DNA of 64,000 nt from Myxococcaceae bacterium (GTDB lineage Bacteria > Myxococcota > Myxococcia > Myxococcales > Myxococcaceae): assembly GCA_016793095.1 (NCBI GenBank), contig JAEUJQ010000083.1, positions 62,001 through 126,000 of the forward strand. The letters are read 5' to 3'. Below are positions 34,020 through 35,435 of the stretch, piece after piece. How positions within the stretch are numbered: position 1 is the first letter of the stretch; every line of letters begins with the position of its first letter. Under the pieces are notes generated by a model, which worked only from the letters and a program-made list of their open reading frames with translations, did no database searches and was not told the DNA's origin. The position numbers were made by a program, and so were the translations under genes.

Positions 34020-34500
34020 TCAGAGGAAGATCTTGTAGAGCGCGAGGAAGCAGCAGACCGGGCCCAGCGTGACGCCGATGACGAGGGCGCGACTGGCCGA
34101 GCGGCCGCCCCGGGGCGCGCTGCGCCTTCACCCGGGCAGGCATGCCCAGCGTGGCGAGCACCATCGACGTGAAGTTGAGCGCGAAGGTCAGCACCATCGC
34201 CTCGATGAACTGGAGGCCTTTCGGCGCGAGGACCGCCACGAGCGCAGGGGCGGCCAGGCGCCCCATGGCCGCCAGGGCCGGGAGCGCGAGGTGGACACGC
34301 GTCCCCAGCCCCCACCAGTTGATCGCTGCCAGCAGCCACCCGCCGAAGGGCATCACGGTTCCGCAGACGATGAGCAACGTCGTGGCCCACACCGGCGTCC
34401 CCTCGCCACGGCGCTGGCAGGCGGCGCACCTTCCGACTTCAGCGTCCCCAGGCCAGCTGCCGCAGCGATCGCAGGGGCGCAGGTGCGTCGGCGGCGTCAC
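34020..34500 (-). pseudogene. Zinc-ribbon membrane protein gene with apparent frameshift
   Basis: From GTG 34500 the protein starts with a zinc ribbon (Cys10, Cys13, Cys25, Cys28). Membrane helices follow (VWATTLLIVCGTVMPFGGWLL and ALVAVLAPKGLQFIEAMVLTFALNFTSMVLA). At CCCCGGGG (34108-34115) the good coding frame shifts. The zero frame becomes Arg/Pro-rich, while another frame reads ASRALVIGVTLGPVCCFLALYKIFL and stops at TGA 34022-34020. A one-base loss in the homopolymers restores a complete last helix. This may be a sequencing error or a real mutation. The gene overlaps the response-regulator stop by GTGA. Confidence 0.6.
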
Positions 34501-35435
34501 GCGTCGAAGAGGAGCTTCTGCTGCTCGGACGCCTGCAGCGCGCGGAAGCTCTTGTTCGCCTCGCGCAGCAGATCCTCGCTCGTGCGCACCTTGTCGGTGG
34601 GGAACACCGCGCCACCGAACCGGATGACGACCTTCAGCCGCCCGTGCGGGCCTTCCACCGGGAGCGCCTGAATGAGGCCCAGCATTCGCTCGGCGACGAT
34701 GCGCGCGCCGGGGAGATCCGTCTCGGGCAGGAGGGCCACGAACTCGTCGGTGTCGATCCGGAACAGGCGATCGGCCCCGCGCATCACGCTGCGCGCCTCC
34801 TGCACCGCCTTCGCGAGGTAGCTGTCGCAGGCGTCGCGGCCGAGCTGGTAGCGAAGGCCCTGGTAGTCATCGAACCCGAACATCAGGCACGCGGCGGGGC
34901 GCCCGTAGCGCCGGCTCCGCGCGAGCTCGGAGTCGAGGCTGGCCTTGAGCTGCGAGTACGTGCCCGCGCCCGTCACCGGATCGACCGCCCGGAACTGCGC
35001 CAGCTCGTCTTCGGCGTCGAGCAGGCGGCGGCGGTACTCGCGCACCGTCAGCGCCGAGTTGATGCGCGTCTGCAGCTCGATCAGCTTGAAGGGCTTGGTG
35101 ATGTAGTCGTCGGCGCCGAGCTCCATGCCGCGGATCTTCCCGTCCATGTCGCCCATGGCGGTCAGCACGATGACGGGCAGCTCGGCGAGCCCCGTCGTCT
35201 CGCGCACCGCCTTCAGCACCGAGAAGCCGTCGCGCCGCGGCATCATCAGATCGAGCAGCACCAGATCGGGCCGCTCGGGCTTGACGAGGTGCTCCATCGC
35301 CTCGACGCCGTCCTCCGCCATCGCCACCCGGAAGCCGCTCGTCTCGCAGAGATCCTTCAGCAGCGTTCGCGTGTGCTCGTCGTCATCGACGACCAGCACC
35401 AGCCGGTTGCTGAAGTCTGGAGCGTTCGGCTTCAT
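34497..35435 (-). CDS. Response regulator with degenerate GGDEF domain
   Basis: This 312-residue protein joins a receiver domain (acidic pocket DDDE at 17-20, phospho-acceptor Asp62 in LLDLMMP, Thr92, Lys114 in ITKPF) to a GGDEF domain (about 150-310). The catalytic GGDEF is DTDEF (228-232), so both glycines needed for GTP binding are missing and cyclase activity is unlikely. The inhibitory I-site RxxD is intact (RGAD, 219-222) at the standard five-residue distance. A phosphorylation-controlled c-di-GMP receptor is therefore likely (inference). It lies 20 bp after dnaB in the same unit. ATG 35435 is chosen because the extra upstream residues lack homology character. Confidence 0.9.
   Translation of the reverse strand: MKPNAPDFSNRLVLVVDDDEHTRTLLKDLCETSGFRVAMAEDGVEAMEHLVKPERPDLVLLDLMMPRRDGFSVLKAVRETTGLAELPVIVLTAMGDMDGKIRGMELGADDYITKPFKLIELQTRINSALTVREYRRRLLDAEDELAQFRAVDPVTGAGTYSQLKASLDSELARSRRYGRPAACLMFGFDDYQGLRYQLGRDACDSYLAKAVQEARSVMRGADRLFRIDTDEFVALLPETDLPGARIVAERMLGLIQALPVEGPHGRLKVVIRFGGAVFPTDKVRTSEDLLREANKSFRALQASEQQKLLFDA

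Follow-up and report, generated by a model that had tools for sequence, protein, structure and literature searches.

Does a response regulator encoded directly behind dnaB in a Myxococcaceae genome still make c-di-GMP, has it become a receptor for that messenger, and does its position connect c-di-GMP to DNA replication? The window analyzed here is a 64,000-nucleotide stretch of this 8.8-Mb genome, and the features on which the argument rests are collected in Table 1.

Table 1. Features of the regulator gene and its dnaB neighborhood, in window coordinates
Feature	Position	Strand	Evidence or remark
Receiver-GGDEF response regulator with helical linker between the domains	34497..35435	(-)	Translation, Pfam, AlphaFold2, Foldseek; 312 aa
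Receiver domain, aa 13-125	35061..35399	(-)	Pfam Response_reg
GGDEF domain, aa 150-304	34524..34988	(-)	Pfam PF00990, 70.5 bits
R173, equivalent of PleD R313, secondary I-site residue	34917..34919	(-)	R in 31/32 aligned orthologues
Primary inhibitory site RGAD, aa 219-222, equivalent of PleD R359/D362	34770..34781	(-)	RxxD motif
Degenerate A-site DTDEF, aa 228-232	34740..34754	(-)	Sequence
R250, equivalent of PleD R390, third primary I-site residue	34686..34688	(-)	PleD alignment
dnaB, replicative DNA helicase, immediately upstream of the regulator	35456..36805	(-)	TIGR00665 DnaB, 507 bits; PF03796/PF00772
Ribosomal protein region upstream of dnaB, L9 and S6 identified	37261..38658	(-)	Pfam

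The regulator open reading frame runs from an ATG through 312 codons to a stop, and one receiver domain and one GGDEF domain were all the domains that Pfam found in it. The preliminary description of this gene had its coordinates and general character right, and its account of the motifs is borne out by the translation: the receiver retains D17, D18, the phospho-acceptor D62, T92, and K114, and RGAD precedes DTDEF by five residues. Residues were matched to PleD by a HMMER alignment of the two proteins, and the roles of the PleD positions (metal, guanine, and I-site) are presumed to be those established for that enzyme. On this numbering, Gly replaces the metal-binding Asp, Arg replaces the guanine-binding Asn, and both motif glycines are gone. 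Positions three to five of the motif, DEF, are retained, and among the catalytic and substrate-binding positions tested, only the equivalents of D344, E370 (as Asp), and E371 remain. An AlphaFold2 model of the regulator reached a mean pLDDT of 88, and its two domains were only loosely placed relative to each other (pTM of 0.53). Its top Foldseek matches were WspR, PleD, and DgcR, PleD being the best PDB relative across both domains, and the GGDEF part matched the single-domain c-di-GMP complex 3ign with a TM score of 0.86 on target length. The model and its matches show the GGDEF fold; modeling on known GGDEF structures was a check that the preliminary description had proposed.

The regulator starts 20 nt past the dnaB stop codon, in agreement with the claim that it directly follows that gene. 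The order rpsF-rpsR-rplI-dnaB is the usual arrangement and is found here, so the regulator forms the end of that unit; L9 and S6 also precede dnaB in relatives. No histidine kinase was detected by Pfam among the typed neighboring genes of the window locus. The open reading frame downstream of the regulator had no Pfam match in the window. A 166-aa frame (34000-34500, minus strand) overlaps the regulator stop codon, has a cysteine-rich start and hydrophobic stretches, and was seen only in the window genome among the compared loci. Between rplI and dnaB lies a short nucleotidyltransferase-like frame with AbiEii-type Pfam matches (36802-37200, minus strand), which shares 4 nt with the start of dnaB and was not detected at the corresponding loci of close relatives. 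Convergent to the regulator, a gene at 29638-33102 (plus strand) encodes a 1,154-aa protein with many DxDxDG-type repeats and no Pfam match, and 14 of the examined loci carry a related gene at the corresponding position.

Orthologues were collected from 34 Myxococcota genomes of seven families (f1, f2, f3, f10, f11, f15, and f28). A search of 60 relatives yielded close orthologues in 22 genomes, including the window genome itself; beyond these, the set holds three genomes from one insert-bearing genus, three that belong to more distant families (G163, G164, and G157), five of family f11, and one of family f28 (locus L191). The regulator follows dnaB in all seven families, and dnaB lies on the same contig in 33 of the 34 genomes, 21 of the 22 with close orthologues among them; in the exception (G018), the contig ends between the two genes. 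The two genes adjoin in 28 genomes, where the regulator often starts inside the dnaB stop, with 4 nt of overlap, and in other cases follows within a gap of less than 30 nt. In the remaining five (G021, G023, G065, G066, and G067, from two genera of the family), a desaturase-type insert of approximately 1.1 to 1.8 kb separates them. At L077:4477-5526, the inserted gene was identified as a fatty-acid desaturase, and it has homologues in L079, L082, and L085; L076 also carries an insert. The matches below about 115 bits that were examined were of two kinds: ordinary or near-ordinary GGDEF proteins without an adjoining dnaB (L113-L120, L181-L185, L192, and L193) and proteins that are dnaB linked and dead (L179, L180, and L191, with the neighbors L186-L188). 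A contig scan with strict patterns returned only close relatives, all of them metagenome-assembled genomes of Myxococcaceae, Archangiaceae, or Myxococcales, and viral contigs scanned with the window protein gave almost solely generic receiver matches.

The GGDEF motif is dead in all orthologues from the 34 genomes. For 32 of them, spanning six families, the sequences were aligned residue by residue, and none has a GGDEF or GGEEF A-site or retains the equivalent of either the metal-binding Asp (PleD D327) or the guanine-binding Asn (N335). The Lys that normally belongs to the FK motif is also gone. The A-sites read DTDEF, DSDEF, DADEF, DVEEF, SADEF, ANDEF, DLDEF, DVESF, DLETF, DEAEF, DMAEF, DYDQF, EENTF, DDDVF, EENEF, GTDQF, and DTDQF, and the protein of the seventh family, which lies outside this alignment (L191), combines RGAD with DASEF beside dnaB. 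The I-site has a different history: the equivalents of R359, D362, and R390 are kept in 32/32 aligned orthologues and that of R313 in 31/32. Across 27 orthologues, 16 of the 147 GGDEF-domain columns are invariant, and these include all three primary I-site residues, an outcome with a chance of about 0.001 if the invariant columns were random. An invariant RxxD without any GGDEF A-site in 32 orthologues is explained neither by chance nor by sequencing error. The GGDEF domain has a within-genus dN/dS of about 0.08 to 0.17, indicating that it is under purifying selection and not decaying. In the receiver, T92 and K114 are present in all 32 and D62 is Asp in 31; at L143:4255-5160, a Glu replaces the phospho-acceptor Asp and is a possible natural phosphomimic. 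As far as sequences can tell, the combination of a dead A-site and an intact I-site is real, ancient, and maintained. Every dnaB-linked orthologue read has a dead A-site together with RxxD, the conservation at this locus that the preliminary description had asked about, and none has the normal GGDEF that it had named as evidence against a receptor.

Within the bacterial family of the window genome, orthologues are well separated from other GGDEF proteins: they score at least 224 bits against a GGDEF-domain profile, and everything else scores less than 95 bits. By this measure, the regulator is missing from the large genera of that family with many species, apparently Myxococcus, Corallococcus, and Archangium; it occurs in none of the 27 genomes of the group inferred to be Myxococcus (g23), where the best match reached 93.6 bits. 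In two genomes of such genera, other genes follow dnaB as open reading frames, and the 20 regions examined behind dnaB contained no match to the regulator, one of them being too short to tell. On a DnaB tree, presence of the regulator changes eight times and is more clustered than shuffled labels; this pattern fits an old presence followed by several losses, without being proof of it. The model myxobacterium would therefore not show the regulator, and the lack of study would be explained if, as seems to be the case, the model myxobacteria belong to the groups without it. A literature search on c-di-GMP or GGDEF regulators paired with dnaB found no paper on a dnaB-linked member, and the dnaB-linked, phylum-wide family appears to be undescribed.

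The best reading of these data is that the regulator is probably a catalytically dead, phospho-controlled c-di-GMP receptor resembling PopA or SgmT. The ligand should be available, since the genome encodes 16 canonical GGDEF domains found by Pfam search. From the retained and lost residues and the gene order, we infer c-di-GMP binding, lack of cyclase activity, phosphorylation, locking of a dimer, and cotranscription with dnaB. Under this model, an unlinked kinase would phosphorylate Asp62 of the receiver, leading to dimerization as in PleD and WspR. c-di-GMP would then occupy the primary I-site (R219, D222, and R250) and bridge to R173 of the partner GGDEF domain, which would have lost c-di-GMP synthesis, and the bridged dimer would be locked in a state able to bind a downstream protein. 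Against a receptor stands the fact that many relatives live without the gene.

The output is harder to place. Retention of the gene behind dnaB across the phylum makes an output tied to growth or replication plausible, and the signal may pass through DnaB or its loader, comparable to the way in which c-di-GMP is linked through PopA to CtrA, an inhibitor of replication; a replication output is our guess from this conserved gene order. The preliminary description had proposed that the gene would put c-di-GMP sensing next to replication genes. Its genomic part held, in that the dnaB linkage, the dead A-site, and the I-site are all conserved, whereas no DnaB residue tracks the gene: in a comparison of genomes with and without the regulator, none separated carriers from non-carriers cleanly, and no sequence sign of contact between the regulator and DnaB emerged. 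It is doubtful, in our estimate, that the family, co-expressed with dnaB, integrates a phosphoryl signal with c-di-GMP and has the replicative helicase, or the loading of that helicase, as its direct target. If it does, c-di-GMP would reach DNA replication directly by a path other than the CtrA pathway of Caulobacter, and if c-di-GMP binds, the family would offer a direct test of whether the messenger reaches chromosome replication in Myxococcota.

The conserved I-site could also have been kept for reasons other than the messenger. The dead GGDEF domain might be a mere dimerization or docking module that binds no c-di-GMP, with RxxD retained for fold stability or contact with a protein partner. 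RxxD is indeed common in active-type domains: 14 of the genome's 16 canonical GGDEF domains have it, so RxxD alone is weak evidence and its conservation could be partly structural. It is likewise kept in two other degenerate GGDEF domains of the genome, L138 (G000:C38:44162-44596, RDAD) and L139 (G000:C73:94541-95002, RDTD), the latter recalling ActA in size and layout. R223, F225, R226, and F232, which lie outside the I-site, are invariant too and suggest a wider conserved surface, and TmoK of Myxococcus xanthus, whose GGDEF domain shows neither synthesis nor binding of c-di-GMP (PMC4877007), is a warning precedent. Nonetheless, R219/D222, R250, and nearly always R173, which are distant from one another in sequence, have been retained together at the scale of the phylum while the catalytic positions drifted. 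Judged on the alignment, joint retention of the four I-site residues in a domain without an enzyme site is a stronger point than RxxD by itself, and we consider a docking module unlikely, though a serious candidate.

A less probable alternative, which we regard as a slim one, is that newly acquired conserved arginines let the former active site hold a different ligand, GTP or (p)ppGpp for example, and that the I-site serves as a second input. R195 and R200 replace N335 and H340 of PleD and are widespread (24/32 and 24/27 orthologues, respectively), so the altered active site is itself conserved, and the PDB holds PleD structures with (p)ppGpp (9g85 and 9g86). R195 is gone, however, in several distant orthologues, D204 is lost in eight of 32, and the catalytic metal-binding Asp is lost everywhere. 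That the regulator remains an active diguanylate cyclase despite its atypical motif is scarcely credible: the cyclase VCA0965 is active with AGDEF (PMC3974145) and the window protein keeps DEF, but both glycines, the first metal-binding Asp, the guanine-binding Asn, and the FK-motif Lys are gone in the orthologues.

Proteins of this kind, a receiver joined to a dead GGDEF domain with an I-site, are already known in PopA and ActA. PleD, WspR, and DgcR share the receiver-GGDEF fold and the I-site residues with the window protein but are enzymes with GGDEF or GGEEF, whereas the window protein has neither the glycines nor the metal-binding Asp and guanine-binding Asn. ActA of M. xanthus, a receiver and a GGDEF domain with degenerate A-site and intact I-site (PMC3509222), has the same domain order and the same state of both sites. 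It differs in setting, since actA lies upstream of actB (PMC4877007) while the window gene follows dnaB and its family is missing from the inferred Myxococcus group; an origin of the regulator as an ActA orthologue of the act operon was rejected on this gene order and distribution. SgmT of M. xanthus binds c-di-GMP through the I-site RHPD of a dead GGDEF domain with the A-site GGGVF (PMC3509222), which supports the precedent invoked in the preliminary description, a degenerate GGDEF domain acting as receptor through its I-site. The dead A-site and intact I-site are common to both proteins, but SgmT, a hybrid histidine kinase, contains GAF and kinase domains besides its receiver and keeps the first two motif glycines, whereas the window protein has neither GAF nor kinase domain and has lost both glycines. 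PopA of Caulobacter, with two receivers and a degenerate GGDEF domain carrying RxxD, serves as a receptor for c-di-GMP and influences replication control via CtrA degradation (PMC10333796; PMC3509222). By its description, PopA is likewise a response regulator with a dead A-site and an intact I-site; it is alphaproteobacterial and has two receivers, in contrast to the single receiver encoded behind dnaB here. Together, SgmT and PopA demonstrate that c-di-GMP binding is possible where the A-site is dead and the I-site intact (PMC3509222; PMC10333796). Whereas dead GGDEF receptors have been known one at a time, here the dead A-site, the intact I-site, and the position behind dnaB appear to have been kept across several families of a phylum.
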